A DNA stretch of 64,000 nt from Paenisporosarcina sp. FSL H8-0542 (lineage in GTDB: Bacteria; Bacillota; Bacilli; Bacillales_A; Planococcaceae): contig NZ_CP152050.1 of assembly GCF_038632915.1 (NCBI RefSeq), positions 1,829,001 to 1,893,000 on the forward strand, read 5' to 3'. The notes beneath the pieces were generated by a model. That model ran no database searches. It had not been told where the DNA came from and worked only from the letters and a program-made list of their open reading frames with translations. The position numbers and the translations under genes were made by a program. Below are positions 27,127 to 62,087 of this stretch, in pieces (the stretch's first letter is position 1; every line of letters begins with the position of its first letter).

Positions 27127-28110
27127 TCAAGCCATAATTTCTGGTTTTCTTTGTTCTAAAACCGGTTCTTTGTAAGAGATTTCCTCACCAGTTTCAATAT
27201 CAATAAACGAACTCGTTTCATTGAACCAGCGGTCTGGTGCTTCGTGTCCCCAAAATGTCTGACGAAGTGGATCATTCAAATCCCAGCGTTTCGGTTTCAA
27301 GTCTGGGTCGGTAGTTAAGTAATCACCAGTGTAGAGTTCAATACGATGGCCATCCGGATCTCTCAAGTATAGGAAGAAGGCATTTGATAAGCCATGACGT
27401 CCTGGACCGCGTTCAATGGATTGTGCATAGCCCATACTGGCAAGAACGTCACAACAATCAAGAATGCTGATTCGGTCTGTCAGAGAGTATGCAAAATGAT
27501 GAAGTTTTGGTCCTGGACCACTCATGAATGCATGGTCATGAACGGTTGGCTTGCGGTAAAGCCACGCAGCCCACAAGTCGCCATTTTCAGTTTCCGTATA
27601 TTCTGAACAGGAGAAGCCTAAGTGGTCAACGTAGAAATCATAAGCTCTTTGAACGTCAGGCACTGCGCAATTAACGTGGTCAATCCGCTGAATTTTCGCT
27701 CCGCGGTATAAGTCATAGCGTTGGAGCATGCGATCGGTTGTCTTCATTTCCGCAAAAAACTCCAATGGAATTCCAGAGTTATCATGCACACGAAGTGTTC
27801 TTCCGATCGCATGCTGCGTTCCGGAAGGCAGCCATTTTGTTTTCAATCCTTTGGATGTAAAGAGCTTTTCGATTTCGTCAAGATCCTGTTCTTTCGCCAC
27901 CTTGTAACTGAGTACTTCCACCATTGCTTTTTCTGCTTGTTTTAATAAAAGACTATGATGAGCATGTTCTTCGAGACCTCTTAAGTAAATATGTTGGTCA
28001 TCACTTTCTGTTTCAATCATGCCTAAACCATTGACGTAAAACTCACGGGAAGCATGTAAATTGGTTACATGAAGAACTGTCCTCGCGATTCGAATGATAG
28101 AAAAATCCAT
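27127..28110 (-). CDS. hpaD: 3,4-Dihydroxyphenylacetate (homoprotocatechuate) 2,3-dioxygenase
   Basis: About 327 residues from ATG 28110 (AGGGGGG upstream); GTG 28119 is an alternative. A two-module VOC extradiol dioxygenase: the metal ligands are seen as IDHVNCA (His ~145), KLHHFAY (His ~204) and HRIELYTGDY (Glu ~258), matching the His-His-Glu set of Brevibacterium HPCD. The second-sphere His in TVHDHAF (~191) is also kept. It opens the ring of homoprotocatechuate beside the hydroxyls, giving 5-carboxymethyl-2-hydroxymuconate semialdehyde, the substrate of hpaE upstream. It is the last gene of the operon. Confidence 0.9.
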   Translation of the reverse strand: MDFSIIRIARTVLHVTNLHASREFYVNGLGMIETESDDQHIYLRGLEEHAHHSLLLKQAEKAMVEVLSYKVAKEQDLDEIEKLFTSKGLKTKWLPSGTQHAIGRTLRVHDNSGIPLEFFAEMKTTDRMLQRYDLYRGAKIQRIDHVNCAVPDVQRAYDFYVDHLGFSCSEYTETENGDLWAAWLYRKPTVHDHAFMSGPGPKLHHFAYSLTDRISILDCCDVLASMGYAQSIERGPGRHGLSNAFFLYLRDPDGHRIELYTGDYLTTDPDLKPKRWDLNDPLRQTFWGHEAPDRWFNETSSFIDIETGEEISYKEPVLEQRKPEIMA

Positions 28111-28131
28111 TGTGGTCACCCCCCTCTGCCG

Positions 28132-29640
28132 TTATTTTCCGAATTGTTGAATATGATGATCGGTTATGGAAACATGAATAATTTTTTGCTCGGTATAAAA
28201 TTCGAAACCGTAATGTCCGCCTTCACGACCGATTCCCGAATACTTCGAGCCTCCAAATGGAGTTCTTAAATCACGCACATTTTGAGCGTTCACCCATAAC
28301 ATGCCAGCTTCCACTTTATGCGCTACACGGTGACCACGTTTGATGTCATTTGTCCATACATATCCTGCCAGCCCGTAATTGATTTCGTTAGCCAGTTTAA
28401 TAGCTTCTTCCTCATCCTTAAATGTCATGACCGTCAGTACCGGCCCGAAAATTTCTTCCTGGGCGATGCGCATATGATTTTCTGCATTTAACAGTAGAGT
28501 CGGTGCAACAAAATTCCCTTTCGCCATTTCTTCAGGGATATCTGCCGTAATGACTTCCGCGCCTTCTTCTTTGGCAATATCCAAGTAGCTTTTCACTTTT
28601 TGATAATGACCTTTATCGATTAAGGGCCCCACTTCTGTGTCGGCTTCTAGTGGATCACCCATCTTGATTTTTGCTACACGTTTTTTCAGCGCTTCAATAA
28701 ATTCATCTTTTATGGATTCCTGCACAAACAAGCGGGAGTTCGCGGTACATCTTTCCCCATTAAAGGAATAAATCCCCCAGACGCATGCATCCATTGCCCG
28801 CTCGAATTCAGCGTCGTCAAAGACGATAATCGGTGACTTCCCACCTAGTTCCATCGAACAGCTTTTCAAAGTATCAGCACTATTTTTAATAATAGTCGAG
28901 CCGGTTTTTGTCTCCCCTGTAAATGAAATCAGTTGAACTTCAGGATGCTTAACGAGCGCATCCCCCGCTGTCTCTCCATAGCCATGAACCACGTTGAAGA
29001 CACCTTTTGGCAGGTCTGCTTTATGAATGATTTCAGCTAACAAGTTCGCCGACAGTGGCGACAGTTCTGCTGGCTTCAACACAACCGTGTTGCCGGTTGC
29101 CAGTGCTGGAGCCACTTTCCATGTTTCCAGCATAAATGGTGCATTCCACGGAGTGATTAACCCTGCTACACCAACAGGCGTGTTGATTGTATAATTGATA
29201 AATTCATCGTCCACTTGATAGGCATCGCCGACGAGGCGGCTTTCCACCATGCGTGCATAAAACCGGAAGTTTTCCGAAGCACGGCCAACCATTTTTTTGG
29301 TCTGGCTGATTGGAAGTCCCGTATCGAGCGCTTCCAAGTAAGCAATTCTCTCTACTTCTTCATCAATCAAGTCCGCTATCCGATAAATGTATTCCATTCT
29401 TTTTGTAAGTTTCATCGTCTTCCAAGGACCATGGTCAAAGGCATCACGTGCAGCAGCTACTGCTTTATAAATGTCTTCTGCTTGTCCTTCAGCAACTTCG
29501 TTGATTTGTTCATTTGTAAAAGGATTCATATTGATTATCGTATTGCCACTAGTAGCAGAAGTGAATTCCCCATTGATATAGAGTAGGATATTGTCTTGCG
29601 TTTCATGTTTAAACGCCACTTTTTCTCGTGAAGATACCAT
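28132..29640 (-). CDS. hpaE: 5-Carboxymethyl-2-hydroxymuconate semialdehyde dehydrogenase
   Basis: About 502 residues from ATG 29640. This NAD-dependent aldehyde dehydrogenase shows PWNAPFMLETWK, the Glu motif MELGGKSP and the catalytic Cys in FNGERCTANSR. Similarity to HpaE and its place between the ring-cleavage dioxygenase and the aldolase-like gene support the role: oxidation of the semialdehyde to 5-carboxymethyl-2-hydroxymuconate. It is closely followed by hpaD (21-base gap). Other ALDH substrates cannot be excluded from sequence alone. Confidence 0.87.
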   Translation of the reverse strand: MVSSREKVAFKHETQDNILLYINGEFTSATSGNTIINMNPFTNEQINEVAEGQAEDIYKAVAAARDAFDHGPWKTMKLTKRMEYIYRIADLIDEEVERIAYLEALDTGLPISQTKKMVGRASENFRFYARMVESRLVGDAYQVDDEFINYTINTPVGVAGLITPWNAPFMLETWKVAPALATGNTVVLKPAELSPLSANLLAEIIHKADLPKGVFNVVHGYGETAGDALVKHPEVQLISFTGETKTGSTIIKNSADTLKSCSMELGGKSPIIVFDDAEFERAMDACVWGIYSFNGERCTANSRLFVQESIKDEFIEALKKRVAKIKMGDPLEADTEVGPLIDKGHYQKVKSYLDIAKEEGAEVITADIPEEMAKGNFVAPTLLLNAENHMRIAQEEIFGPVLTVMTFKDEEEAIKLANEINYGLAGYVWTNDIKRGHRVAHKVEAGMLWVNAQNVRDLRTPFGGSKYSGIGREGGHYGFEFYTEQKIIHVSITDHHIQQFGK

Positions 29641-29687
29641 ACTTATCACCTATATTCTTAAGTTTGTAGTGATCATCAACTAAGTTA

Positions 29688-30617
29688 TTAGTTTACAGCC
29701 GCTTCCTTTGGAAGTTTCCCAAGGTCGACGAGTGTTTCGCGAACTTCTCTTTTTAGAGCCTCTGAAGGGAATCCTAAAGGCAGTCGAAGTTTCGGATTGA
29801 TTTTCCCCATCATGCCAAGCGCTACTTTTGCAGGTCCTGGGTTGGTATCTTTAAACAACACATCGTTTAATGGCATTAATTCGAAGTGCAAATCCTGACA
29901 TCTTGCTACGTCGCCCGCTTCCCATGCATTGTATAATTCGGCCACTTTGACCGGTTCAACGTTCGCTGTTGCGCTGATGAATCCGGCCCCACCAATTGCA
30001 AGCATCGGATAGCACAGCAGTTCGATTCCTGAATACAAAAGGAAGTCTCTGCCGCAGTTCAGCAATACACGGTTGACATGCTCGAAGTCTTTATTCGCTT
30101 CTTTTACACCGACGATATTCGGACAATCTTCCACTAAACGTTTCATCGTGCTTACTTCCATATTGACTGCAGAACGACCCGGGATATTGTAAATGATAAT
30201 CGGTGTTGTCACTGAATCAGCGACTGTTTTAAAATGCTGGTAAAGGGCTTCCTGATTTGGCCTGTTGTAATAAGGCACAATTACCATCGCAGCATCAGCA
30301 CCGATTTCTTCAGCGTACTTTGTCAATTCCATTGTTTCGTCATGGTTTGTCGACCCTGTTCCAGGCGCGAAAAAGACACGGCCGTCTATAGTTTCTTTTG
30401 CAAGGGCCATCACTCTTTTTCGTTCAGACATTGTCAAAGAGCTCGGTTCCCCGCTAGTTCCCGTAACGGAAATCCCATGACTGCCACTTTCAATTTGCCA
30501 GTTAATTAACTCAATAAATGCTTTTTCATCAATTGCGCCGTCTTCTGTAAACGGGGTAACGACAGGACAAATGGACCCTCTTAATTTTCTTTTCGCTTCT
30601 GTGTATGCCAAATTCAT
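29688..30617 (-). CDS. DapA-family class I aldolase, likely HpaI replacement
   Basis: 309 residues of the dihydrodipicolinate synthase/N-acetylneuraminate lyase family. The Schiff-base Lys is in NIVGVKEAN (~171), and the partner Tyr is in IIIYNIPGRS with the DapA-type Arg. The GTTGE loop reads GTSGEPSSLT. Lysine synthesis is unlikely inside an hpa operon. The pathway needs a 2,4-dihydroxyhept-2-enedioate aldolase (normally HpaI, a metal enzyme of a different fold), and no HpaI is present. This gene probably supplies that retro-aldol step, yielding pyruvate and succinate semialdehyde. That assignment is inference from position. Confidence 0.72.
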   Translation of the reverse strand: MNLAYTEAKRKLRGSICPVVTPFTEDGAIDEKAFIELINWQIESGSHGISVTGTSGEPSSLTMSERKRVMALAKETIDGRVFFAPGTGSTNHDETMELTKYAEEIGADAAMVIVPYYNRPNQEALYQHFKTVADSVTTPIIIYNIPGRSAVNMEVSTMKRLVEDCPNIVGVKEANKDFEHVNRVLLNCGRDFLLYSGIELLCYPMLAIGGAGFISATANVEPVKVAELYNAWEAGDVARCQDLHFELMPLNDVLFKDTNPGPAKVALGMMGKINPKLRLPLGFPSEALKREVRETLVDLGKLPKEAAVN

Positions 30618-30649: not shown

Positions 30650-31141
30650 TTATTCCTGAAGTTCTTTCAGTTCACGATATTTTCCCTGGCTGTAGAGCAA
30701 CGGGTCATGTTGTTCCAGTTTGACGCCCGTTACTTGCCCGATAAAAATGGTATGATCGCCAGCTACATATTCGCTATGCAGTTTACACGTCACAACTGCC
30801 AGTGAATCCGGAAGAACAGGAAGTCCTTTATATGAAGAGAACGTTATATCATCCTCTAAATTTAACTGACCGGAGAATTGCTTGGACTCATTTACTTGTT
30901 TGGTTGTCAGGATATTGACAGCAAATTGTTTTGCTTCTTTGATATGTTGCAGCATTCTAGCTCTTTCACCAATACTGACGGCGATAAGTTTCGGGTTTAA
31001 TGAAATCGACATGAACGCATTTGCGGTCATGCCATGTACCTCACCAGCGACTTCGGTCGTTATGACTGTGACACCGGTTGCGAAACTTCCCATTGCATTG
31101 CGAAACAATCGATCATCCACTTCATGTTCATCGTTGTGCAT
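30650..31141 (-). CDS. hpaC: Flavin reductase component of 4-hydroxyphenylacetate 3-monooxygenase
   Basis: 163 residues with the HpaC/RutF-type flavin reductase fold: FRNAMGSFATGVTVIT at the start, GMTANAFMSISLNP, and FAVNILTTKQ. It uses NADH to reduce FAD or FMN, which HpaB consumes. It lies 43 bases behind hpaB in the same unit. The C-terminus (YSQGKYREL) is also family-typical. Confidence 0.87.
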   Translation of the reverse strand: MHNDEHEVDDRLFRNAMGSFATGVTVITTEVAGEVHGMTANAFMSISLNPKLIAVSIGERARMLQHIKEAKQFAVNILTTKQVNESKQFSGQLNLEDDITFSSYKGLPVLPDSLAVVTCKLHSEYVAGDHTIFIGQVTGVKLEQHDPLLYSQGKYRELKELQE

Positions 31142-31184: not shown

Positions 31185-32669
31185 TTAAGATAAAATACCC
31201 GCTTCTTTTTTCGCTCTGTTCAGGAAGTCTTTCACCATGTTTTTATATGGTTGCTTGTCGAATTGATCGTAATAAGCATTTGACATCCGCACTGGATCTC
31301 CGAAGAAATAGTACTCATACAGTGCTTGGCGGTTACCGAAGGCACTGATTGAAATATCCCAAGCTAAGCGGAATAATTGAACTTTTTCCTCACCATTGAT
31401 GTTGGCACCTTGCGTGTAACGATGAACTAATGTTCCGACATCCGTACTACTGAAGTCTGCTTCTGTTGGCAATGCCATCAAGCCGGATGCGCCAAGAATT
31501 TTAATGATTTCATTCATCCGTTGGTACATTTTCGGGTACCAGTTACGGGCTGCGTTCAACGGTTCAAAGTCAGGTGTCATATTGCCATATTGATCGATTT
31601 TGGCGTTGTGTTCGGCGCGGTATAGGTGAGAACGCATCACTTCCAAAATGACCATGATTTCGCTCGCTTTTTCTTTTACATGCATGAACTGATCAATTCC
31701 GATTGCTTCCATCATGTTGACGACCACACCTAGAATGAACTCTGTTTTCACCGTGTTTTTGGCGATGACTTGATGCGTCATATGTATGACCGCATTCGTT
31801 TCCGTATACGTACGATTACAGATGTTTGTACTTTCGCTTACAAATACTCTTTCCCATGGAACAAACACGTCTTCAAACGAGATAATCGCATCACTTTCGT
31901 CAAAACGGGCACCGAGCGGATGATCCCATTTGCTCTTCCCATAGTCGAATGACTCACGAGACAAGAATTTCAGCCCTGCCGTATTATTTGGAATAGCGAA
32001 TGCGAAAGCATACGGATCGTCCGTCGTTCCTGGAGTCCGATTGATAGTGGAAGGGAAAACGACCAGTTCGTCAGTGATACCACCTAAAGTGGCCAACAGG
32101 CGGCAACCGTTCACGATAATTCCGTCTGGAGTCTTTTTGGTTATACGTGCGGATAGTGTAGGATCTTTTTGATCCGATTGAGTCAATGTCGATCGGTTCA
32201 CTTGTGGATGGATTAATGTATGAGTTAAGCTGATGTCATTTTCACGTGCATATTCATAATAGTCTCTGGCATTTTTGGCAAATTGCTTACTGCCGCCACC
32301 TTCTTGTGCGAAGAATTCACTGGCAGTACCAAAAGCCATAATGCTTGTATTTAAATAGTCTGGAGAACGTCCCATCATGCCGCCGGAAAAACCAGCCCAT
32401 TCGGAATGCATTTCACGTCTTCTAAATAAATCTTCTTTGGTTTTCGGTGCAATAAAGGAAAGCCCAACTTTTTTGCCTGAAGTCGGTGAAGTATAAAGCA
32501 TCTTCTCTGGCTTCTCATGTTGCAGATCATATAGTCCAGCTACACTTTCCACAACGTTTTTAAAGGCAGGGTGTGTCGTGACGTCTTCCACTTTCTCCCC
32601 GTGAATCCACACTTCAGTGTTCCGTTTTTTTATGCCTTCGATATATTCTTTTCCTGTACGAGCGCCCAT
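31185..32669 (-). CDS. hpaB: 4-Hydroxyphenylacetate 3-monooxygenase, oxygenase component
   Basis: 494 residues of the HpaB/PvcC family (acyl-CoA-dehydrogenase-like fold). It begins RTGKEYIEGI and contains HAGHDFTHALIHPQ-like LTHTLIHPQVNRS, GCRLLATLGGITDELVVFPS, and VFVPWERVF near the middle. It hydroxylates 4-hydroxyphenylacetate to homoprotocatechuate using reduced flavin from HpaC. AGGAGGG precedes the ATG. Among HpaB types, the length and the presence of a separate HpaC match the Bacillus/Thermus form. Confidence 0.9.
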   Translation of the reverse strand: MGARTGKEYIEGIKKRNTEVWIHGEKVEDVTTHPAFKNVVESVAGLYDLQHEKPEKMLYTSPTSGKKVGLSFIAPKTKEDLFRRREMHSEWAGFSGGMMGRSPDYLNTSIMAFGTASEFFAQEGGGSKQFAKNARDYYEYARENDISLTHTLIHPQVNRSTLTQSDQKDPTLSARITKKTPDGIIVNGCRLLATLGGITDELVVFPSTINRTPGTTDDPYAFAFAIPNNTAGLKFLSRESFDYGKSKWDHPLGARFDESDAIISFEDVFVPWERVFVSESTNICNRTYTETNAVIHMTHQVIAKNTVKTEFILGVVVNMMEAIGIDQFMHVKEKASEIMVILEVMRSHLYRAEHNAKIDQYGNMTPDFEPLNAARNWYPKMYQRMNEIIKILGASGLMALPTEADFSSTDVGTLVHRYTQGANINGEEKVQLFRLAWDISISAFGNRQALYEYYFFGDPVRMSNAYYDQFDKQPYKNMVKDFLNRAKKEAGILS

Positions 32670-32771: not shown

Positions 32772-33155
32772 CTATTTAAATCGTGCATGGATATTATTTT
32801 GCTTATATGTGCCGGCCTCACTGAATTCGATCAGTTCCATCGACAATGCCAAGTAACGTTTGGACATGAGTTCCGAAAAATGATTTTTCAATACGGCAAA
32901 TAATGCATCGCAAGCTTCTTTTTTAACTTCTGCCGAACGTCCTGCTCCTATTTTCAACACGGCATGGACAAAAGCATCGTCTTCAGCCCCGTCAGCAACC
33001 CGGTAATCTTTTAATACAATTGCCCTTGAACGGATGCCCCCTATAGGGAAAACGGAGTCCCGTGAAATGAGGACTTTATGAACTTCTTCAAATAGCAGCG
33101 CGATATTCGCCTCATTTTTGATATTATCCGTATATTCCACTGTAAAATGCGGCAT
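32772..33155 (-). CDS. hpaF: 5-Carboxymethyl-2-hydroxymuconate delta-isomerase
   Basis: 127 residues beginning MPHFTVEYTDNIK, the hallmark of CHMI, a tautomerase-fold enzyme whose catalytic residue is the N-terminal Pro exposed after Met removal. It converts 5-carboxymethyl-2-hydroxymuconate to the 2-oxo-3-ene isomer. It lies between hpaG2 and hpaB; the 102-base gap to hpaB holds no clear terminator. Confidence 0.88.
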   Translation of the reverse strand: MPHFTVEYTDNIKNEANIALLFEEVHKVLISRDSVFPIGGIRSRAIVLKDYRVADGAEDDAFVHAVLKIGAGRSAEVKKEACDALFAVLKNHFSELMSKRYLALSMELIEFSEAGTYKQNNIHARFK

Positions 33156-33175: not shown

Positions 33176-33934
33176 TTACCGGTTCGAGAACGCTTCATCC
33201 CCGATAATGGTATTGACCAATCGTCCGATTCCTTCAATTTCTGTCACGACTTCATCACCGACAGCAGTATCGACGGACCCTTTAGGAGTGCCTGTAAGAA
33301 TGACATCATTCTCACTCAATGTCATGAAGCTGCTTAAATATTCTATGAGCGTCGGAATATCAAAAATCATATCCGCTGTCGTTCCTTCTTGAACAAGCTT
33401 GTTATTGACATGGGTAGTCAACTTAAGTTCCATCGGATTGGCCACATCATTCGCATCGATGAGCCAAGGACCAAATGGTGTACACGTATCGCGGTTTTTG
33501 ACACGCAAATTCGGACGGTAATAGTTTTCAAGATAATCTCGAATCGCATAATCATTTGCTACACTGTAACCTTTGACATACTGATAAGCCTCTTCTTTTT
33601 TTACATTGCGAGCAGTCTTTCCGATAATGACGGCCAACTCACATTCATAATGCATGTACGTGACGTCAGAAGGGCGACGGGTATATGCATTATGGCCGAT
33701 AAACGTATTCGGTCCCTTCAGAAAAACCAATGGTTCTGATGGTGCATCAAATGCCAGTTCGGCTGCGTGATCCGCGTAGTTAAGCCCTAAAGCAAATACG
33801 GTACGCGGGACGATTGGCGTCAACCATACAACATCACGTTCTTCTACAATCCGTCCGTCATCAAGCTTCAGGCGGCCTTCCCATTCAATCGCTTTGTGGA
33901 TTGCGCCTTCACAGGATATCCGTGCTGTTCTCAT
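33176..33934 (-). CDS. hpaG2: Fumarylacetoacetate-hydrolase-fold decarboxylase/isomerase, catalytic half (HpaG2-like)
   Basis: About 252 residues from ATG 33934, behind GGAGGTGG. The metal-binding motif HYECELAVIIGK (E-x-E, residues ~91-102) is intact, as is LTGTPKGS near the end. E. coli HpaG is one chain of two such domains; its metal site lies in the second. This gene equals that active half. It should remove CO2 from 5-oxopent-3-ene-1,2,5-tricarboxylate and act as isomerase. It overlaps hpaG1 by 4 bases, suggesting that the two subunits assemble together. Confidence 0.8.
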   Translation of the reverse strand: MRTARISCEGAIHKAIEWEGRLKLDDGRIVEERDVVWLTPIVPRTVFALGLNYADHAAELAFDAPSEPLVFLKGPNTFIGHNAYTRRPSDVTYMHYECELAVIIGKTARNVKKEEAYQYVKGYSVANDYAIRDYLENYYRPNLRVKNRDTCTPFGPWLIDANDVANPMELKLTTHVNNKLVQEGTTADMIFDIPTLIEYLSSFMTLSENDVILTGTPKGSVDTAVGDEVVTEIEGIGRLVNTIIGDEAFSNR

Positions 33935-34722
33935 TGCGACCACCTCCGGTTGAAAGATTCTTCGTCAACCAGTTCATTTTCTAGTTTGCCGACACCCTCT
34001 ATCTCAATCCGGACTTTATCTCCGACTATTGCAAGTGGCGCATCTTCTGGTACCCCTACGAGCAATACGTCTCCTGGACTCAATGTCATAAATTCAGTCA
34101 CGTCAGCAAGTAAACGGGCAACGGGGCGAATTAAATTCTTTGTTGAATTTTCCTGTCGCAGTTCATTGTTGATGAACACACGGATGGTTACATCATCCGG
34201 ATTTTTCATTTCGTCCCTATCAATAACCCATGGTCCGATTGGACAAAATCCATCGCGGCATTTTTGTTGTACAGCTGGACGGAATAGGCTTGTATGCGGA
34301 ACGCTCACGTCGTTAACGATCGTATAGCCTGCCACATAATCCATTGCTGTTTCTTCCGTTACCGCAACTGCTGTTTTGCCGATGACAATTCCAAGTGAAG
34401 CACCCATTTCAAGTTTCGATTCGCTTTTAGGAACTGGTATGCCTGCTCCATATCGATTCAATGTATTTTCAGGTTTAATGTATAAAACAGGAGCAACTGG
34501 AGGCGAAAGGTATGGTTTATCATTGACCTTATCACCAAGTCTTTCAAGGCCACCATGAAAGTTCAATAATGTACCATAAACCGTTCCAGTAACGGGGTTG
34601 TCCAAGGGTATATCGTTTATACCAAACTCATTACCTTCAAATTCGATTGAATTTGTTTCTGTATTCACAGATACGGAAGATAATTCTCTTGAATCAGTTC
34701 TTTTGATCTTTGCATTAAGCAT
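33931..34722 (-). CDS. hpaG1: Fumarylacetoacetate-hydrolase-fold protein, probably non-metal half (HpaG1-like)
   Basis: About 263 residues from ATG 34722 with AAGGAG 8 bases upstream. It has the FAH fold, including VYGTLLNFHG, PVAPVLYIKPENT and LLVGVPEDAP. The metal motif E-x-E aligned with the hpaG2 ECE reads GAS (EMGASLGIVIGK), so both Glu are lost. It probably acts as the structural partner of HpaG2, equal to the N-terminal domain of the fused HpaG. It is the first gene of the operon, behind a promoter with a 15-bp palindrome. Confidence 0.75.
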   Translation of the reverse strand: MLNAKIKRTDSRELSSVSVNTETNSIEFEGNEFGINDIPLDNPVTGTVYGTLLNFHGGLERLGDKVNDKPYLSPPVAPVLYIKPENTLNRYGAGIPVPKSESKLEMGASLGIVIGKTAVAVTEETAMDYVAGYTIVNDVSVPHTSLFRPAVQQKCRDGFCPIGPWVIDRDEMKNPDDVTIRVFINNELRQENSTKNLIRPVARLLADVTEFMTLSPGDVLLVGVPEDAPLAIVGDKVRIEIEGVGKLENELVDEESFNRRWSQ

Positions 34723-34775
34723 TCGAATCACTCCTTAAGTTATTAAACTAGTTGTTTATCGGTTCAATAACTACA

Positions 34776-36665: not shown

Positions 36666-36683
36666 GTAGAATCACCTCCTGAT

Positions 36684-39187: not shown

Positions 39188-39188
39188 A

Positions 39189-54810: not shown

Positions 54811-54840
54811 GAGATATTCCTCCTTTTGAGGTGAAAGAAT

Positions 54841-54872
54841 ACGGACAGGGGGTTGGATAACTCCCTGTCCGT
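54841..54872 (-). terminator. Hairpin inside the paa operon
   Basis: ACGGACAGGG pairs exactly with CCCTGTCCGT around a 12-base loop, between the ALDH stop and paaH start. The tail on the - strand (ATTCTTTCACC) is only mildly T-rich. It may be an attenuator, a partial terminator, or a site that sets mRNA stability for upstream and downstream halves of the operon. Confidence 0.5.
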
Positions 54873-54885
54873 CATTCAAAAGATT

Positions 54886-56403
54886 TTATAGACCGAACGG
54901 ATTTAAAGGACGGCTACCATAGTACGATAAAATACTTTTCGTTTCTGTATAAAGGTCCAATGTTTCTATGCATAGTTCGCGCCCGAATCCGGATTGTTTA
55001 TAGCCGCCAAAAGGCGTTCCAGGGAAAGCAGAGAACGGACAGTTGACCATAACGATTCCAGCTTGAATCTGATTGGCAACGCGAGTAGCACGTGCTCCAT
55101 CTTTAGACCAGACAGCCGAACCTAATCCGAACTCAGTATCGTTTGCTAGGCGGATCGCTTCTTTTTCATCTTTGAATTTCATCACAACGACAACTGGTCC
55201 GAAGATTTCATCTGTTACAGCCTTCATGTCGTGATTTACGTTTGCGATGATTGTCGGCTCATACCAGAAACCATTTTCATAGCCTTCTGGTTTCGCGATA
55301 TTTCCTCCGACAAGGATTTCCGCTCCTTCTTTTTTAGCGGATTGGACATAGCCATCAATTGTTTCAAGTTGTGCTTGATCAATAATGGCCCCCACATGAG
55401 TTGCTTTATCAAACGGATTGCCCATCTGTAATTTCTTCGCTTTTTCTACAAACTTGTTCATGAATTCATCGTAAATGTCTTCATGGACGTATAAACGAGA
55501 ACGTGCCTCACATGATTGGCCCGAATTATAGAATATGCCAAATAATGATCCATCAACCGCAGCATCAATATCTGCATCTTCAAATACTAGACTTGGAGAT
55601 TTACCGCCAAGCTCCAATGTCACGCGTTTTAATGTTTCAGATGCTTTACCCATAATGTCTTTACCGATTGGTGTAGAACCTGTAAAGGCAACTTTATTTA
55701 CTCGTGGATGCTCCACTAAGAAGTTTCCGACTTCCGCTCCCGAACCTGGAATCACGTTCACTACACCTGCAGGAACCCCTGCTTCAAGACAGATTTCTCC
55801 AAGGATAATTGCAGTGAGTGGAGTAAGTGATGCCGGTTTGACAATTACTGAACATCCTACAGCTATTGCAGGTGCGATTTTCCATGCCGCCATCATTAAC
55901 GGATAGTTCCATGGAATGATTTGAGCGCAAACTCCAACGGGCTCTTTCTCAGTATAATTGTGGAATTGACCCGGAACGTTATTTACTGTGCCGCGATGCC
56001 CAACGATTGCGCCTGCGTAAAACTCAAAATCTTCGATAGCTTGAGACACTTGCCCTTGTGCTGCATGAAGCGATTTACCAGTATCAAGCATTTCCAATTC
56101 CACTAGCTCATTGAAACGAGAGCGCATGATTCCTGCAATTTTATTCAATACCTGCGCTCGGCGACCAATCGGATAGAGCTTCCACTTTCCATGGTCAAAA
56201 GAATTACGTGCCGCTTCAACTGCTTTTTCAGCATCTTCTTTAGAAGCTTTTGCCACTTCCGCAATCAATTCACCAGTAGCCGGATTGAAAGTTTTAATCG
56301 TATCACCATTGCTACTGTTCACTTTTTCACCATTAATAATTAAATGATAAAAATCACGTTTCATTGATTCTTGCTCAAGTTGATTTTCTTTGATCGTTGC
56401 CAT
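54886..56403 (-). CDS. Aldehyde dehydrogenase of the phenylacetyl-CoA pathway (PaaZ dehydrogenase equivalent)
   Basis: About 505 residues from ATG 56403. ALDH motifs: PWNYPLMMAAWKIAP, LELGGKSPSLVFED with catalytic Glu, NSGQSCEARSRLYV with catalytic Cys, and PFGGYKQSGFGREL. In E. coli PaaZ the ALDH is fused to a MaoC-type hydratase that opens the oxepin ring. Here only the ALDH is present and no MaoC domain lies in the window. It should oxidise 3-oxo-5,6-dehydrosuberyl-CoA semialdehyde. Betaine-aldehyde-type substrates are an alternative. Confidence 0.8.
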   Translation of the reverse strand: MATIKENQLEQESMKRDFYHLIINGEKVNSSNGDTIKTFNPATGELIAEVAKASKEDAEKAVEAARNSFDHGKWKLYPIGRRAQVLNKIAGIMRSRFNELVELEMLDTGKSLHAAQGQVSQAIEDFEFYAGAIVGHRGTVNNVPGQFHNYTEKEPVGVCAQIIPWNYPLMMAAWKIAPAIAVGCSVIVKPASLTPLTAIILGEICLEAGVPAGVVNVIPGSGAEVGNFLVEHPRVNKVAFTGSTPIGKDIMGKASETLKRVTLELGGKSPSLVFEDADIDAAVDGSLFGIFYNSGQSCEARSRLYVHEDIYDEFMNKFVEKAKKLQMGNPFDKATHVGAIIDQAQLETIDGYVQSAKKEGAEILVGGNIAKPEGYENGFWYEPTIIANVNHDMKAVTDEIFGPVVVVMKFKDEKEAIRLANDTEFGLGSAVWSKDGARATRVANQIQAGIVMVNCPFSAFPGTPFGGYKQSGFGRELCIETLDLYTETKSILSYYGSRPLNPFGL

Positions 56404-56416
56404 GTCATTACTCCCC

Positions 56417-57190
56417 CTATTGTCCTGAAAAGACAGGTTTTCGTTTTTCCATAAATGCATTGACACCTTCACGGTGATCTTTTGTAAGTCCTGCTATTCG
56501 TTGCCCTTGAGCTTCATGTTCAAGGTAATCTTCAAACGAAAGTTCTGGAACCGCTTTCAAATACCGTTTAATCAATCCGACTGCTTTCGTCGGTAAAGAG
56601 GCAATGCGTTTTGCAAAAGCAGTTACATCTTCTTCCCAACTTTCCGCTGAGATAAGTTGTGTTGCCAGTCCCATATTAAATGCATCTTCTGCTTTCACTT
56701 TTTCACCCAATATTGAAAGTTCTATAGCCTTCGCTTCACCCACCAGGCGTGTTAAATAATAGAGATTCCCTGAATCGGGAATGAGACCAACATGGATAAA
56801 CGCATTAATAAAACTTGCGCGCTCTGAGACAAGCCTGAAATCACAAGCAAGTGCTAAACTGAATCCAGCTCCCGCCGCAACTCCATTTACAGCTGCGATA
56901 AGTGGTTTTTCACACTGCCTGATTTGCTTCATCATCGGACCATAATGGTCACGCAAGACTTGACCGTGATCCATCTTTTCATCGACTTCCGATAAATCCT
57001 GTCCAGAACAAAATGCCCGTCCTTCTCCTGATATGACAATGCAGCGAACATGTTCATCGTTGGATGCAGTTTTGATTGCGTCTTTTACTTCACGGTTCAT
57101 TTGAGCGACAAATGCATTCAAACTGTCCGGTCTATTTAAATAGAGCCATGCAATACCGTCTTTGACGTCGTAACGGATTGTCTCAAACAT
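56417..57190 (-). CDS. paaG: Ring 1,2-epoxyphenylacetyl-CoA isomerase (PaaG-like crotonase)
   Basis: About 257 residues from ATG 57190 (GGGAG 8 bases upstream). Crotonase fold with AFCSGQDLSEV and AAGAGFSLALACDF. It lacks the two hydratase Glu: the first loop reads AGFSLAL and the second GLIPDSGNLYYL, with Asp in place of Glu, as in PaaG. PaaG turns the epoxide into the seven-membered oxepin-CoA and shifts double bonds later in the path. Confidence 0.83.
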   Translation of the reverse strand: MFETIRYDVKDGIAWLYLNRPDSLNAFVAQMNREVKDAIKTASNDEHVRCIVISGEGRAFCSGQDLSEVDEKMDHGQVLRDHYGPMMKQIRQCEKPLIAAVNGVAAGAGFSLALACDFRLVSERASFINAFIHVGLIPDSGNLYYLTRLVGEAKAIELSILGEKVKAEDAFNMGLATQLISAESWEEDVTAFAKRIASLPTKAVGLIKRYLKAVPELSFEDYLEHEAQGQRIAGLTKDHREGVNAFMEKRKPVFSGQ

Positions 57191-57202
57191 CCTACACACT
57201 CC

Positions 57203-57979
57203 CTACTTCCCTTTATAATCGGGTTTTCTCTTTTCAACAAACGCATTCATGCCTTCTTTTTGGTCCTGTGTTGAGAACAGCAGATAGAAGTTTTTCCGTT
57301 CATACTGCATGCCTTCAAATAAGGAAGAATCAACTGCCTTGTTTACAGAATCTTTGATAAGACGTAAGGATAGGGGCGGTTGCTTGGCAAGTTTGTTTGC
57401 GAACTTCATACACTCTTCCATTAGAAGTTCTGGTGCTACGATTTTATTAATGACTCCATATTTTAAAGCTTCATTCGCTGAAATACGCTCGCCCGTCCAT
57501 AGCCACTCCAAAGCTTTTGTCCGTCCGGCAAGTTTCGTCAAGCGCTGTGTTCCACCTGCTCCGGGCATGACACCAAGACCTACTTCAGGGAATGAAAACT
57601 CTGTCCCACTGGCTGTAATTAGAACGTCACAACATAGTGCAAGCTCGAATCCTCCGCCGAAAACAAATCCTTTTACAGCACCAATAATCGGCTTCTTAAT
57701 GAGGGCCAACCGATCCCAATCGGCAAATTGATTCAGCAGTTCCAGACTGATTGAATCATCATTCGTCATTTCGTCGATGTCCGCACCTGCCGAGAAAGCT
57801 CTGCCCTTACCAGTCAACACGATCACACGCACCTGGTCATCTCGATCAAAACCTTCCATCGCCTCGACCAGTTCCCTTACCATTTTCCTGTTCAAGGAAT
57901 TCAACTGACGCGGGCGATTCAGCTCGATTAACGCCACGTTTCCTTCAATGGAAGTTTCAATGAATTCAAACGCGTTCAT
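57203..57979 (-). CDS. paaF: 2,3-Dehydroadipyl-CoA hydratase (PaaF-like crotonase)
   Basis: 258 residues. Both catalytic Glu are kept, in FVFGGGFELALCCDV and FPEVGLGVMPGAGGTQRL, so this is a true enoyl-CoA hydratase. AFSAGADIDEM forms the oxyanion loop. In the Paa route PaaF hydrates 2,3-dehydroadipyl-CoA. The ATG shares its A with the stop of the EthD-like gene, so the two are coupled. The hydratase at 51776 could share or swap this role. Confidence 0.8.
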   Translation of the reverse strand: MNAFEFIETSIEGNVALIELNRPRQLNSLNRKMVRELVEAMEGFDRDDQVRVIVLTGKGRAFSAGADIDEMTNDDSISLELLNQFADWDRLALIKKPIIGAVKGFVFGGGFELALCCDVLITASGTEFSFPEVGLGVMPGAGGTQRLTKLAGRTKALEWLWTGERISANEALKYGVINKIVAPELLMEECMKFANKLAKQPPLSLRLIKDSVNKAVDSSLFEGMQYERKNFYLLFSTQDQKEGMNAFVEKRKPDYKGK

Positions 57980-58296: not shown

Positions 58297-58797
58297 TTAC
58301 ATGTTGGTAGAGACCGGTTTCATGGCCTCGAATACGTTTTTGCAACTCTTGCAATATAGAATACTTCGACATGCGGTTGGTCCAAAGATATTGTCCATGG
58401 TCACGTAGGTGGACCCGCAATAGGCGCAATCAACATGCCAACTTCCATCTTCTTTAAAATGACGCGGAGGTGGTGCAATTCCAAACGCCCTCAAATTCTT
58501 ATGCCCTTTTTCTGTGATACGATCTGATGTCCATGGTGGATGTAATGCGAATTCCACTTCAACTTCACCGACATCTAGTAATTCTTTTATAGCACTTATG
58601 GTATTTTTCTTGATAATTTCTAGTGCGGGACAACCTAAAAAGGTTGGCAGAAGAACAACTTTCACATGATTTCCATCCGTTGTAACTTCACCGATCATGC
58701 CGAGATCAAAGATGCTGACCGTGTCTATTTCTGGATCTTTCACGTTCAGCAGAGCTTCATAAATCCGCTCAACCGACACTTCTGTAAATGCAGTCAT
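58297..58797 (-). CDS. paaD: Phenylacetyl-CoA epoxidase assembly protein PaaD
   Basis: 166 residues. The MIP18/DUF59 domain (DPEIDTVSIFDLGMIGEV, then FLGCPALEII with Cys) is followed by a C-terminal Cys-rich ribbon, CAYCGS ... CKSC, and an extra Cys in TACRS. PaaD is needed for epoxidase activity in E. coli and is thought to help mature the iron centre. It lies 24 bases behind paaC. Confidence 0.86.
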   Translation of the reverse strand: MTAFTEVSVERIYEALLNVKDPEIDTVSIFDLGMIGEVTTDGNHVKVVLLPTFLGCPALEIIKKNTISAIKELLDVGEVEVEFALHPPWTSDRITEKGHKNLRAFGIAPPPRHFKEDGSWHVDCAYCGSTYVTMDNIFGPTACRSILYCKSCKNVFEAMKPVSTNM

Positions 58798-58821
58798 GTT
58801 GCCTCCTCCTTTCCCGATCTT

Positions 58822-59634
58822 TTACCAGACGGCGGCTGTATCGAGCTTGTAAACTTCTGAAAGAGTTGTTAGAGCCTCCTCCAGATCTTTTGTGTGTTGT
58901 CCATTTCGTCCGTTTTTTACTGGATGATCAGGAATTTTCAACATTTGCATGTGAACCGCTAGCATCATTGGTTCGATGCTTATTTGCCATTTTTGTTTCA
59001 ATTCTTCCTCACTGCCTATAAGCCCACTAGATTCGATCGCTTGTTTTTGATCACCGTAAGAGAAAACATCTCCGAAATCATCCATCACACGGGAGATTGC
59101 GTCATTCATTTTCTTTTTTGCTACATCTGTAGAATTCATCAATTGCTTGAACCACGTATCCCAGTGCAGGCGGTGATAATAAAGTTCCATCCTCACTTTT
59201 ACAGCTACTTCCGCAAGAGGTTGGTAGGAGCTTTCGCATAAAGAGTCGATTTTCACTTTTTTCGCTTGTGTATATAAATAACTTCGTGCAACCGCATATG
59301 CCCAATCATAATGGGGAGTTTCCAAATAATATCCTTGCCCGTTCACGCGTTCTGTTAAAATACTGTTTTTTCTATCCGCTACCAGGCGAAAATGAGCCAG
59401 AGCATCAGCTTTTCCTGCACCCAGATTTTCAAGAAGTGAGTAATACATTGCCGCATGCCCCATCGTATCCTGGCTGATTGAAGAATAAGCGATATCAGCT
59501 TCGATATGAGGAGCAAGTCCTAACCATTCCGATCCACGAAACGAGTATAAAAAGTCATCATCAGCCAACTGGAATAACAAACTTTTTACAGCTTCTGTAT
59601 ATTCCGGGCTCATCACTGAGTCAGCATTGTTCAT
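58822..59634 (-). CDS. paaC: Phenylacetyl-CoA 1,2-epoxidase subunit PaaC
   Basis: 270 residues, mostly helical, of the ferritin-like PaaC family: LLFQLADDDFLYSFRGSEWLGLAPHIEADIAYSSI fragments at the start (residues ~18-52), DTMGHAAMYYSLLE and FRLVADRKNSILTERVNG. It is the structural partner of PaaA and lacks a complete di-iron site in known members. It overlaps paaB by 4 bases. Confidence 0.88.
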   Translation of the reverse strand: MNNADSVMSPEYTEAVKSLLFQLADDDFLYSFRGSEWLGLAPHIEADIAYSSISQDTMGHAAMYYSLLENLGAGKADALAHFRLVADRKNSILTERVNGQGYYLETPHYDWAYAVARSYLYTQAKKVKIDSLCESSYQPLAEVAVKVRMELYYHRLHWDTWFKQLMNSTDVAKKKMNDAISRVMDDFGDVFSYGDQKQAIESSGLIGSEEELKQKWQISIEPMMLAVHMQMLKIPDHPVKNGRNGQHTKDLEEALTTLSEVYKLDTAAVW

Positions 59635-59978
59635 TTTCTATCGCCTCCCCATGACAAGATTTCTTTTTCATCCAGCATTTCCTGTTCATATTGACGCCAT
59701 TTCTTTTTCAAGTAACCATACCCTTTGGTCGTGCGGTATTCTTTGTTTTCAAGCCGGTTAAGTGTCAATTTTTCTTCAGCATTCATTCGTTTAATGTGCT
59801 TACGGTTGACGATCCAAATGTCAGCAACAGGCTCACGTCGCATAAAGTTTTCCTGCGCTAAAATTAGCGCCATATCTTCATTCGGAGCCAGTAAACTGAA
59901 TTGGTGCTGGAAAGCTGAGCTCGGTGTTCGTTTGCTAAAAATTTCATATTCCTGATAAAATGTTTTCTCTTCTCCCAC
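59631..59978 (-). CDS. paaB: Phenylacetyl-CoA 1,2-epoxidase subunit PaaB
   Basis: 115 residues from GTG 59978, with GGAG 9 bases upstream. YEIFSKRTPSSAFQHQFSLLAPNEDMALILAQENFMRRE segments (residues ~11-50) are the PaaB hallmark. PaaB bridges two PaaAC heterodimers. The protein is slightly longer at the C-terminus than E. coli PaaB. Confidence 0.88.
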   Translation of the reverse strand: MGEEKTFYQEYEIFSKRTPSSAFQHQFSLLAPNEDMALILAQENFMRREPVADIWIVNRKHIKRMNAEEKLTLNRLENKEYRTTKGYGYLKKKWRQYEQEMLDEKEILSWGGDRK

Positions 59979-59996
59979 TTCACCTGACTCCTTTCA

Positions 59997-60950
59997 TTAA
60001 CTTATATTCGCACTAAGTGCATCCCGTACCCATGAATTATATTCATAAGAATGTCTGCGTAAATTCAGTCGCGCTTCCGAACGTTGCCCCTGATTTTTAA
60101 TGATTTTCTTAAATTCATTCCAATCCGGCTGCTGATAGGACCATAAATTGCCATCTTTGTCGAAATGGAAGGTCGGATCCGGTATGGTCAATCCCAGTGA
60201 AAGTATTCGTGGCATGTATTTATCAAAAAAGATTTGCCTGAATTCTTCATTTGTTTTCGTCCGGATTTTATATTTAATTGTTAAATCTTGTTTGGATGAA
60301 CCGGTCGTTTCCTTACTAGCTGGCCCGAAGAACATAAGAAGTGGTTCCCACCAACGATTCAGTGCCTCCTGAACCATCGCTTTTTGTTCATCTGTTCCTT
60401 CAGCTAACGCTAAGATGATGGATTCACCATGTTGAGCATGAAATACTTCTTCTGCACAGATTCGTTGCAGTGCTCTTGCGTACGGACCATATGAAGCTTT
60501 GAGCATATCTGTTTGGGTAATAATCGCGGCACCGTCAACTAGCCATCCAATAATCCCTGCATCCGCCCATGTTTTCGTTTCCATATGAAAAACATTATGA
60601 AACTTCAAATCTCCATTAAATAGATCCTGCATTAAGTCTGCACGGGTTTTGTTATATGGTGCCAGTAAGTCCTCCGTTACACGAAGCAGAAGCTGCCCAT
60701 GCCCCATCTCGTCCTGTACCTTAGCCATAATTCCGAGTTTTCGGTTCAAAGAAGGAGCTTTAGGTACCCATTCTTTTTCAGGTAAAGCTCCCATAATTTC
60801 GCTCATGCCATGCATCGAAATTAGCTTTATGAGTGTCTGTCTATATTCTTCCGGCATCCAGTCATCCGCTTCAATTTTGTCACCAGCTTCAATGCGTTTC
60901 ATAAAATGTGCATACTGTTTTTCTTCATTTGTGGTGTTTACATTTGTCAT
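59997..60950 (-). CDS. paaA: Phenylacetyl-CoA 1,2-epoxidase catalytic subunit PaaA
   Basis: 317 residues with the di-iron ligands of PaaA: QDEMGHGQLLLR (E-x-x-H) and CAEEVFHAQHGESII (E-E-x-x-H). YKIRTKTNEEFRQIFFDKYMPRIL and the C-terminal NLRRHSYEYNSWVRDA are family-typical. It inserts one oxygen of O2 into the ring of phenylacetyl-CoA. AAGGAGG lies before the ATG. It is the first gene of the operon and follows a candidate PaaX operator. Confidence 0.92.
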   Translation of the reverse strand: MTNVNTTNEEKQYAHFMKRIEAGDKIEADDWMPEEYRQTLIKLISMHGMSEIMGALPEKEWVPKAPSLNRKLGIMAKVQDEMGHGQLLLRVTEDLLAPYNKTRADLMQDLFNGDLKFHNVFHMETKTWADAGIIGWLVDGAAIITQTDMLKASYGPYARALQRICAEEVFHAQHGESIILALAEGTDEQKAMVQEALNRWWEPLLMFFGPASKETTGSSKQDLTIKYKIRTKTNEEFRQIFFDKYMPRILSLGLTIPDPTFHFDKDGNLWSYQQPDWNEFKKIIKNQGQRSEARLNLRRHSYEYNSWVRDALSANIS

Positions 60951-60996
60951 ATTGAACCCTCCTTGTCTAAAGATATGCGTAGTTGACCTTTCCCAT

Positions 60997-61013
60997 AACG
61001 TTATATATACGTT
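60997..61013. promoter_or_regulatory. Candidate PaaX operator upstream of paaA
   Basis: AACGTTATATATACGTT is an inverted repeat of AACGT and ACGTT half-sites 7 bases apart; on the - strand it covers a TATATA that can serve as -10. The ten bases TATATACGTT recur at 62166-62175 in front of the reductase gene. Assignment to PaaX is by position. Confidence 0.42.
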
Positions 61014-61061
61014 AATTAATTACTTTGTTACATTGAATCGAATGCCTATTTTAAATGTTTA

Positions 61062-62087
61062 TTATTTCACCAATTCTGCAGTTTCAGAATTCACCTTTTC
61101 CATAACTGACGTACTATGAAGTGGCTGAACTTTTGAAGATGGATCAATATAAACTTTTGCATTGCTAATTGCTGTTGGAGCCTCTCCAAAACCTGAAGCA
61201 ATCAGTTTTACTTTGCCTTCATATGTGCAAATATCTCCCGCAGCGAAAATGCCAGGAATACCAGTTTCCATTCTTGAATTTACGACAATGCTGTTTTTCT
61301 CAAGAGTCATGCCCCAGTTCTTGATGGGACCAAGTGACGATACAAATCCATAATTGACTAGTACAGCATCTACATCAATGATAGTTCTTTCGTTGCTTTT
61401 TACTTCTTTCAATACAACCTGTGTAATGCGGTCTTCTCCACTTAACTCTGCAGGGACGAAGGGAGTCAGCACTGTTACAGAGGAGTTTTTCATCTTTTCC
61501 ACTGTGTTTTCATGTGCTCGGAATTTATCGCGACGGTGAGCAATGGATACTTTCTGTGCGATTGGCTCCAGCATGAGTGCCCAGTCAACTGCAGAATCTC
61601 CCCCACCAAAAACATGTACTTTTTTCCCGGCAAATTGTTGTAAATCATTGATCAAATAATGAAGATTGCTTTCTTCAAATTTCAATGTATCTTCCAAATC
61701 CAGTTTCTTCGGATGGAATGCTCCATTACCTGCTGTTATCAATATGGTTTTTGAATAATGGATGCCCTTACTCGTTATAAGCTTAAATGTGCCATCGGCT
61801 TGTCTTTCAAGTGCCTCCACCTCTTGATTCAAACAAATCGTTTGTTCAAATTGACCCATTTGTTCTAGTAAGTTATCAATAAGTTTTTGTGCAGATATTT
61901 TCGGAAAACCGGCAACATCATAAATATATTTTTCTGGATACAACGCAGACAATTGCCCTCCAAGTTGCGGGAGGCTTTCAATAATTTTGCAGGACATATT
62001 ACGGAGTCCAGCATAAAAGGCGGAGAATAAACCGATGGGTCCTCCCCCAATAATCGTTACGTCATACACTTCCCGATCATGAGACAT
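61062..62087 (-). CDS. Ferredoxin/flavodoxin-NADP+ reductase, thioredoxin-reductase-like (YumC type)
   Basis: About 341 residues from ATG 62087, 8 bases behind AGGGGG. FAD motif [16 protein letters not shown] and NADP motif [15 protein letters not shown] with HRRDKFRAH are present, and [25 protein letters not shown] is near the end. The Cys-x-x-Cys of thioredoxin reductase is absent, which defines YumC-type FNR. The epoxidase PaaABC needs electrons, in E. coli from PaaE, which is missing here. This reductase, directly ahead of paaA, probably takes over that supply through a ferredoxin or flavodoxin. Confidence 0.82.

Follow-up and report, generated by a model that had tools for sequence, protein, structure and literature searches.

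A 64,000-nucleotide stretch of the genome of Paenisporosarcina sp. FSL H8-0542 (hereafter the window, C1:1829001-1893000; the genome is a single contig, C1, of 3,629,232 bases and is 99.8% complete) carries an island of genes that very probably serves the aerobic catabolism of aromatic amino acids, with CoA activation by oxidative decarboxylation instead of a ligase. In the proposed pathway, an ABC importer would take up tyrosine (Tyr) and phenylalanine (Phe), and phenylalanine dehydrogenase (PheDH) would convert Phe to phenylpyruvate, the second of two copies perhaps being more Phe-specific and the first taking Tyr too. A dedicated 2-oxoacid dehydrogenase complex (E1-E2-E3) would then turn phenylpyruvate, CoA and NAD into phenylacetyl-CoA, to be degraded by PaaABC and the rest of the phenylacetate (Paa) pathway. 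The same complex would convert 4-hydroxyphenylpyruvate to 4-hydroxyphenylacetyl-CoA, from which a FlK-type thioesterase would release 4-hydroxyphenylacetate, to be taken on by HpaBC and the Hpa meta-cleavage operon. This reading is based on the genes present, the absence of the phenylacetate-CoA ligase PaaK, co-occurrence across genomes, operon conservation, diagnostic residues and a shared promoter motif; the substrates of the importer, PheDH copies, E1 and thioesterase, as well as the regulators and the flux, are predictions from sequence.

Island layout and absence of PaaK

Gene calls were made from a list of open reading frames (ORFs) together with NCBIfam and Pfam profile scans. These agree with the initial annotation in placing the island genes on one strand (minus) apart from a plus-strand gene labeled paaY, and in recognizing paaABCD, paaX, an FNR, two PheDH-type dehydrogenases, a thioesterase, the E1-alpha, E1-beta, E2 and E3 subunits and an ABC importer. 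In minus-strand order, from 62093 down, the island begins with FNR, paaABCD, paaF- and paaG-type genes, an aldehyde dehydrogenase, paaH- and paaJ-type genes, a further hydratase and paaX. Genes for a GNAT protein, a YitT-type membrane protein, a signal peptidase and a nitronate-monooxygenase-like protein lie between paaX and the second PheDH gene (PheDH2), which is followed by the thioesterase, the first PheDH (PheDH1), E1-alpha, E1-beta, E2, E3 and the binding protein, permease and ATPase of the importer. The island ends with hpaG(N), hpaG(C), hpaF, hpaB, hpaC, an aldolase gene, hpaE and hpaD (to 27127).

The lack of paaK, originally noted for the window, extends to the whole genome: the best match to the PaaK model TIGR02155 was 45.9 bits (cut-off, 646.3), to a FadD-like ligase of 544 amino acids, and PaaK itself was found nowhere else. 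Nine AMP-binding enzymes are encoded, with nearest models among long-chain or other acyl-CoA ligases, acetate-CoA ligase, MbcS and MenE; a hidden paaK was therefore rejected, the AMP-binding enzymes all being nearest to other families. The term "ligase-free" used in the initial annotation holds for PaaK, but eight further acyl/aryl-CoA-type ligases are classed by family only. An indolepyruvate oxidoreductase of the IorA type was also considered and rejected (best match in the whole genome 69 bits, cut-off 651).

Co-occurrence of the complex with the Paa pathway

To establish how the complex is distributed, 261 genomes from 19 genera of the order were surveyed (PaaK was called at an E value of 1e-100, since 0/261 genomes pass the strict cut-off of 646). 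The epoxidase gene paaA was present in 56 genomes, paaK in 33, all within those 56 (32 intact copies scored 607-642 bits), and this E1 in 49, of which 48 fell within the 56. Put differently, 48/56 paaA-bearing genomes carry the E1 compared with 1/205 genomes without paaA (Fisher P = 8e-43). Among the 56, E1 alone was found in 23, E1 plus paaK in 25, paaK alone in 8 (seven genomes of genus g8, plus G191) and neither in 0; the association of E1 with lack of paaK gave a Fisher P of 0.016, with no kinship correction for either value. One genome, G137, has a paaK with internal stop codons (C4:60795-61628, 278/422 positions matched) and has kept the complex, which looks like paaK decay in progress; counting it as PaaK-less changes the figures to 24 with E1 only and 24 with both. 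An E1-alpha tree of 45 genomes (without G185, G224, G075 and G147, and with G137 scored as PaaK-less) requires nine or more changes of paaK status, five of them forced by starred branches, with the complex retained. Outside the order, paaA was present in 47/47 E1-bearing genomes and paaK in 33/47 (14/47 without); these 47 genomes, of unknown completeness, were selected on E1 and so test only the tie to paaA.

Matches to HpaB-1, the far paralogue described below included, were found in 163/261 genomes, versus 49 for E1. Two genomes, G178 and G205, have kept paa, the thioesterase, PheDH, E1-E3 and the importer with neither HpaB (at an E value of 1e-120) nor paaK. To judge by its gene content, this is a Phe-only form of the island.

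The E1-E2-E3 complex and its operon

The genes for E1-alpha (41449-42504), E1-beta (40428-41444), E2 (39189-40415) and E3 (37748-39187) lie side by side on the minus strand. In the E1-alpha alignment the motif GDGATSEGDFHEGLNFA, which we take to be the thiamine diphosphate (ThDP) motif, is intact. E1-beta, a predicted aryl-pyruvate-type subunit (PF02779 and PF02780), probably starts at 41444 and not at 41591, given its ribosome site and the alignment of solved homologues from residue 57 or later. E3, a dihydrolipoyl dehydrogenase, scored 405.2 bits against TIGR01350 (cut-off, 408.8), and the dihydrolipoyl acyltransferase E2 matched E2 families at 304 bits at best, below equivalog cut-offs. E1-alpha exceeded the cut-off of PDH_E1_alph_x (TIGR03181; 472 bits, cut-off 411), as did the genome's own pyruvate dehydrogenase (PDH) elsewhere (463 bits), but a match to this model is not a sure guide to the substrate of an E1 of this class.

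The genome encodes three E1-type 2-oxoacid dehydrogenases: PDH, a branched-chain complex linked to leucine dehydrogenase (LeuDH) and the PheDH-linked complex of the island. The two E1-alpha homologues elsewhere (41 and 40% identity) are located in the PDH operon and in a complete bkd operon (ptb-LeuDH-buk-lpd-bkdAA-bkdAB-bkdB), and because both operons are already present, the island complex is surplus to the PDH and branched-chain jobs. Linkage to LeuDH, ptb and buk is absent for the island complex; a PheDH-type gene adjoins it instead, with bkd elsewhere. The E1-alpha belongs to a subfamily of its own, with Thr59 where PDH and branched-chain 2-oxoacid dehydrogenase (BCKDH) have Phe: Thr59 occurs in 119/119 PheDH-linked E1-alpha sequences (a redundant set), and Phe in the genome's own PDH and BKD, a Bacillus PDH and the Thermus E1. 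A further 21 positions are conserved in ≥95% of the 119 and differ from all four of these references. The replaced Phe is presumably Phe66-alpha of the Thermus E1, which lines the substrate pocket, and its change to Thr would make room in that pocket.

The gene order is conserved well beyond this species. Named loci were the best 80 of 584 relatives, chosen for this E1 and partly from the same genomes as the order survey; their record titles give >20 genera, Bacillus badius included. Of these best 80 of 584, 75 have a same-strand PheDH no more than 400 bp from E1, 62 a thioesterase at up to 3.5 kb, and 68 some paa gene in the locus; PheDH is slightly further from E1 in L108 and L110, and none is shown in L126, L142 and L166. 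PheDH is the next recognized gene upstream of E1 in 42/48 loci fetched from the order, 30 of which have an unbroken run from thioesterase through PheDH, E1-alpha, E1-beta, E2 and E3 to the substrate-binding protein, followed in 21 by hpa genes within the fetched stretch. E1-alpha, E1-beta and E2 without PheDH were seen in four g18 genomes, in G147 and in one of two copies in G206. In Bacillus badius (L101), PheDH-E1-E2-E3 stands beside paa genes, with paaK also in the genome. A contig labeled Pseudomonas sp. ISL-84 (L161) carries a Bacillales-type block with an E1 66% identical to that of the island, and its label or assembly is probably wrong.

Two predicted phenylalanine dehydrogenases

PheDH1 (42520-43695, minus strand; PF02812 and PF00208) and PheDH2 (44246-45388, minus strand; assigned by alignment to LeuDH) are 74% alike. 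In an alignment with Geobacillus LeuDH, Ala113 and Val291 are replaced in PheDH2 by Gly and Leu, respectively, and this Gly/Leu pair, reportedly the signature of PheDH specificity, is found in 128/128 aligned PheDH copies (a redundant set that includes both window copies); the genome's own LeuDH has Ala/Val. Mutants at Asn145 of the Lysinibacillus sphaericus PheDH are said to discriminate better against Tyr. Counting from the Gly places what we take to be the equivalent site at Asn153 of PheDH1 and at a Val of PheDH2. In the 43 genomes of the order whose fetched locus contains PheDH (excluding that of the window), an Asn-type copy is present in 29/32 with an island-type hpaB and 1/11 without (Fisher P = 1.5e-6). 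The exceptions are G077 (81% complete), with Asn and no hpaB, and G172, G190 and G216, which are the other way around. Within the order, two such copies were seen in G000, G073, G075, G076 and G077.

A promoter motif shared by the PheDH-E1 and paa operons

The window contains three copies of an operator-like motif, ACGTNNNNANARYGTTAT, at ≤1 mismatch, all of them exact and on the minus strand: before PheDH2, at the head of the PheDH-thioesterase-E1 operon (45504-45521), before paaA (60995-61012) and before FNR (62156-62173). As the motif was read by eye from those promoters, these three matches are circular and the relatives alone count as a test. In 51 relatives' loci (989,573 bases, own species left out) there were 19 matches at ≤1 mismatch, 17 of which lie 47-270 bp before the thioesterase, PheDH or paaA, compared with about 5 expected anywhere in those loci (order-1 Markov shuffles of one locus in five). 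In G205, the motif precedes both paaA and the thioesterase. A set of 70 named loci (L099-L168, mostly other genera, a few being genomes already counted above) held 64 matches versus about 6 expected; 23 are on the same strand before the thioesterase, paaA, paaX, binding protein or E1, and 41 are unassigned, several of these being the opposite strand of one palindrome, often ATAACGTT-N6-AACGTTAT in the named loci. A palindrome search of the island promoters themselves found no shared dyad.

PaaX (50810-51688, minus strand; TIGR02277 331 bits, cut-off 265) is the only regulator identified among the scanned island ORFs. In Escherichia coli, the inducer of PaaX is phenylacetyl-CoA and its operator, TGATTC(N27)GAATCA, differs from the island motif (PMC9493321). 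The repressor of the PheDH-E1 and paa operons is most likely PaaX, which would sense phenylacetyl-CoA. A perfectly palindromic cre-like site lies upstream of the thioesterase gene (44216-44231), with similar sites, found by eye, upstream of the thioesterase in 15/18 relatives and another match inside paaA; CcpA probably adds catabolite repression.

A proposed tyrosine branch

The hpaBCDEFG-type gene set of the initial annotation, for homoprotocatechuate meta-cleavage, was recovered on the minus strand, with HpaG as two subunits and with HpaC and HpaF below cut-off. It comprises HpaD (3,4-dihydroxyphenylacetate 2,3-dioxygenase, 27127-28119; TIGR02295 425.8 bits, cut-off 321), HpaE (CHM semialdehyde dehydrogenase, 28132-29649; TIGR02299 772.7 bits, cut-off 638), an HpaI-type aldolase of DapA fold (29688-30617; TIGR02313 482.5 bits, cut-off 397), an HpaC-like flavin reductase (30650-31141; NF042921 132 bits, cut-off 200), HpaB-1 (4-hydroxyphenylacetate 3-monooxygenase, 31185-32669; TIGR02309 725.7 bits, cut-off 480), an HpaF-like isomerase (32772-33155; NF011605 145 bits, cut-off 215) and the C-terminal-type (33176-33943; TIGR02303 389 bits, cut-off 276) and N-terminal-type (33931-34731; TIGR02305 268 bits, cut-off 229) subunits of HpaG. 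No HpaH hydratase was found among the scanned island ORFs, to which that search was confined. A second HpaB-1 relative (C1:2145735-2147162, 552 bits) lies far from the island, and genomes of the order often have a match of about this score, whether or not they carry paa. A homogentisate route for Tyr was rejected, as no 4-hydroxyphenylpyruvate dioxygenase exceeded the cut-off in the whole genome (best 43 bits, cut-off 277).

The importer (34844-37751, minus strand) consists of an ATPase (34844-35641), a permease (35619-36665) and a TrpX-type binding protein (36684-37751), identified by NF041285 (246 bits, below the cut-off of 390), PF04392 and PF02653. Solved homologues of the binding protein bind aromatic amino acids: as reported in PMC6816091, CD0873 holds Tyr, VC_1101 Phe (structure 3lkv would be this protein) and SP1069 Trp. 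Glu281 of the binding protein aligns with the Tyr-selecting Glu263 of CD0873, the numbering offset being our own estimate. This residue was rejected as a marker of Tyr versus Phe; it is Glu in 74/76 and Asp in 2/76 aligned proteins, and Glu/Asp also in the hpaB-less G178 and G205.

The thioesterase (43711-44106, minus strand) is a FlK-type hot-dog protein (PF22636 112 bits, cut-off 27; structures 2cwz and FlK) with no match to any PaaI-type model at the thresholds used. Its Thr, Glu and His align with those of 3kv7 and are presumably catalytic.

Weighing the evidence

The Phe half of the route set out in the initial annotation, to phenylacetyl-CoA without PaaK, is well supported: PaaK absence, co-occurrence over 261 genomes, operon conservation, PheDH residues and the promoter motif are several independent genomic facts that point the same way. 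The Tyr half, through 4-hydroxyphenylacetyl-CoA and the thioesterase into Hpa, relies on gene content, on the thioesterase and on G174, in which the thioesterase-PheDH-E1-E3 block adjoins hpa and a separate contig carries paa and paaK. It is plausible but less secure than the Phe half, since genomes in which no HpaB is found retain the thioesterase too. As it is, in addition, missing from some complex-bearing loci, the thioesterase is not specific to Tyr. An alternative role would be CoA relief when Paa is overloaded, by analogy with that proposed for PaaI (PMC9493321).

Several observations weigh against the pathway as proposed. The 25 genomes that combine the complex with paaK have, in the ligase, another way to phenylacetyl-CoA. 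Among solved structures, E1-alpha is nearest in sequence to a PDH E1 (that of a Bacillus PDH), so the specificity of E1 cannot be read from homology. E1 occurs without an adjacent PheDH in four g18 genomes with paaK (L079-L082) and in L083, L084, L126 and L166, and nine aligned E1-alpha copies of this kind (two of which, L082 and L142, are from one genome) have Thr59 and most of the subfamily residues, which are therefore not proof of phenylpyruvate use. The thioesterase, as noted, is kept where HpaB was not found, and 18/80 loci are without one within 3.5 kb. The motif ACGTNNNNANARYGTTAT has no match at ≤1 mismatch in 33/52 loci or in 20/30 paaA loci (two of the ten paaA loci with a match are from this species). 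The tie between the Asn-type PheDH and hpaB is not significant after kinship correction: the tree offers only five independent pairs on starred branches (2 concordant, 0 discordant and 3 showing no difference), so the association could be due to kinship alone. Finally, one of the eight ligases besides acetate-CoA ligase, MbcS-like and MenE included, might accept phenylacetate.

Three other explanations were considered. The complex could be a second 2-oxoacid dehydrogenase of the branched-chain or general type that is in an aromatic island by position only, as its match to the generic PDH model TIGR03181, its Bacillus PDH relative and the subfamily members without adjacent PheDH would allow. 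We regard this as very unlikely, given that the genome already has its own PDH and bkd operons, that the E1 is nearly confined to paaA-bearing genomes and is linked to a Phe-signature PheDH, not to LeuDH, in 75/80 loci (best 80 of 584), and that the subfamily-invariant residues, including the change of Phe to Thr at Thr59, differ from both PDH and BCKDH. We give still less credence to a complex that serves Tyr only (4-hydroxyphenylpyruvate to 4-hydroxyphenylacetyl-CoA, thioesterase and Hpa), with phenylacetyl-CoA supplied by a ligase of another family. The arrangement in G174 and the nine AMP-binding enzymes fit it, but the complex and paa occur in G178 and G205 with no HpaB match at an E value of 1e-120, paaK is missing from 14 of the 47 genomes from other genera that have E1 and paaA, and the E1 follows paaA far more closely than it follows HpaB-1 (matches in 163/261 genomes, E1 in 49). 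Least credible of all is a route in which phenylpyruvate decarboxylase would form phenylacetaldehyde, this would yield phenylacetate, and a non-PaaK ligase would attach CoA, with the complex as an accessory. An aldehyde dehydrogenase in the paa block (54886-56472) and the MbcS- and FadD-type ligases fit this route, but it leaves unexplained the strict pattern of E1 or paaK in 56/56 paaA-bearing genomes, and the aldehyde dehydrogenase is also present in the PaaK-bearing paa blocks of the E1-less genomes G048, G049 and G191 (L086-L088), which fits the role of PaaZ. Oxidative decarboxylation of phenylpyruvate by the complex is thus the explanation we prefer.

Other features of the island

The phenylacetyl-CoA epoxidase genes paaD, paaC, paaB and paaA (58297-60950; TIGR02159, 02158, 02157 and 02156, all over cut-off) and the other members of the paa block are on the minus strand. 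Enzymes of the PaaF, PaaG, PaaH and PaaJ types are present as annotated, but fall below the strict PaaG/PaaF/PaaH/PcaF cut-offs: a PaaF-type hydratase (57203-57979; NF007239 260 bits, cut-off 371), a PaaG-type isomerase (56417-57199; TIGR02280 255 bits, cut-off 345), a PaaH-type 3-hydroxyacyl-CoA dehydrogenase (53938-54879; over the cut-off of PRK09260, 502 bits, cut-off 429) and a PaaJ-type thiolase (52736-53953; PRK09050 604.9 bits, cut-off 605). Neither a PaaZ fusion nor a classical PaaE turned up among the scanned island ORFs, to which both searches were limited. Likely stand-ins are the aldehyde dehydrogenase (54886-56472; families below cut-off, its role in the PaaZ dehydrogenase step suggested by position), a third enoyl-CoA hydratase (51776-52600; PRK07657 344 bits, cut-off 363) and, as electron donor, the TrxR-like FNR upstream of paaA (61062-62093; Pyr_redox_2, TIGR01292 175 bits, below cut-off), which may replace PaaE. 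Residues 120-159 of PaaD (58297-58797, minus strand) weakly match a small haloarchaeal PaaE model (41 bits, cut-off 100).

The plus-strand gene annotated as paaY (46833-47390) did not retain that identity: it scored 125 bits as PaaY (cut-off, 319.6) and 208 bits as a gamma carbonic anhydrase (cut-off, 250). G+C content is 0.42-0.43 over most of both catabolic blocks and 0.35-0.39 in the island middle (44001-52000) and most of the remaining window. In the fetched loci of the order, the signal peptidase, YitT and GNAT genes of this middle section have homologues at this place in the same species only (L085). The nitronate-monooxygenase-like gene (45806-46978, minus strand) lies between paaX and the PheDH-E1 block in most paa-linked relatives' loci as well and has no obvious part in Phe or Tyr breakdown. 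Just downstream of hpaD, 24855-26138 (minus strand) gives a partial match to glutathionylspermidine synthase (58 bits, cut-off 882), and the two small genes beside it have no NCBIfam match at 1e-8.

Significance and comparison with known systems

PaaK is regarded as the point of entry to the phenylacetate pathway and as its marker, for example in a survey where the pathway was found through its ligase and PaaA/PaaC were supported as markers across PAL-encoding genomes (PMC13186573). Genomes with paaABC and no paaK would be read as broken or missed, yet 23/56 paaA-bearing genomes of one order and 14/47 E1-bearing genomes outside it have the conserved alternative. If the proposal is true, the ATP-to-AMP cost of the ligase would be saved and NADH gained, and paaK-less strains are predicted to grow on Phe and not on phenylacetate. 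The proposal may, in addition, place the industrially used Bacillus PheDH in a natural context. A broader proposition, which may equally well prove right or wrong, is that of a widespread Bacillales class of aryl-pyruvate dehydrogenases, forming a unit with PheDH and usually a FlK-type thioesterase, controlled by the paa repressor. Paa in lineages without paaK would then be an amino-acid pathway that never sees free phenylacetate; one complex would feed two ring-cleavage routes, sorted by a thioesterase preferring the hydroxylated CoA ester, and the Asn/Val site of PheDH would set Tyr entry.

The chemistry is known; its catabolic, PheDH-linked and paa-coupled form appears undescribed in the literature searched. 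Neither a paa-linked aryl-pyruvate dehydrogenase complex nor PheDH with Paa in Bacillus was found among the open-licence PMC matches listed, judged by title and opening of the abstract, and neither phenylpyruvate nor Bacillus appears as a word in the main text of two paa surveys (PMC13186573, PMC2653477). The island shares PaaABC(D), F-, G-, H- and J-type enzymes and PaaX with the classical paa pathway and differs in the lack of PaaK from the genome, in having the FNR for PaaE and in a separate aldehyde dehydrogenase for the PaaZ fusion. The Bacillus bkd operon, also present in this genome, likewise places an amino-acid dehydrogenase beside its 2-oxoacid dehydrogenase complex; its substrates are Leu/Val/Ile, and its E1-alpha and E1-beta are 38% and 45% identical, respectively, to those of the island. 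The HpdDEFG-J-K system of Clostridium scatologenes likewise leads from arylpyruvate via aryl-acetyl-CoA to free arylacetate, but is anaerobic and ferredoxin-dependent and takes the CoA ester to ATP via a phosphotransferase and a kinase (PMC13285125). The island has instead a predicted NAD-linked complex and a thioesterase. The enzyme of Phaeobacter inhibens is presumably an indolepyruvate:ferredoxin oxidoreductase, and the island genome has no such oxidoreductase over cut-off. Phenylpyruvate is reported to be turned into phenylacetyl-CoA without free phenylacetate in P. inhibens too, in a route that serves secondary metabolism (tropodithietic acid, roseobacticide; PMC7497051). The closest precedent found is, by analogy, PglB/PglC of Streptomyces pristinaespiralis (L-phenylglycine of pristinamycin), a PDH-like E1 pair suggested to turn phenylpyruvate into phenylacetyl-CoA (PMC7089894). 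The pgl operon, as listed there, is biosynthetic, comprising the E1 pair, PglA (called a dioxygenase), a thioesterase, an aminotransferase and a nonribosomal peptide synthetase gene, with no PheDH, E2 or E3 listed. The island, likened to it by description and not by sequence, is catabolic, with PheDH, E2, E3 and Paa.

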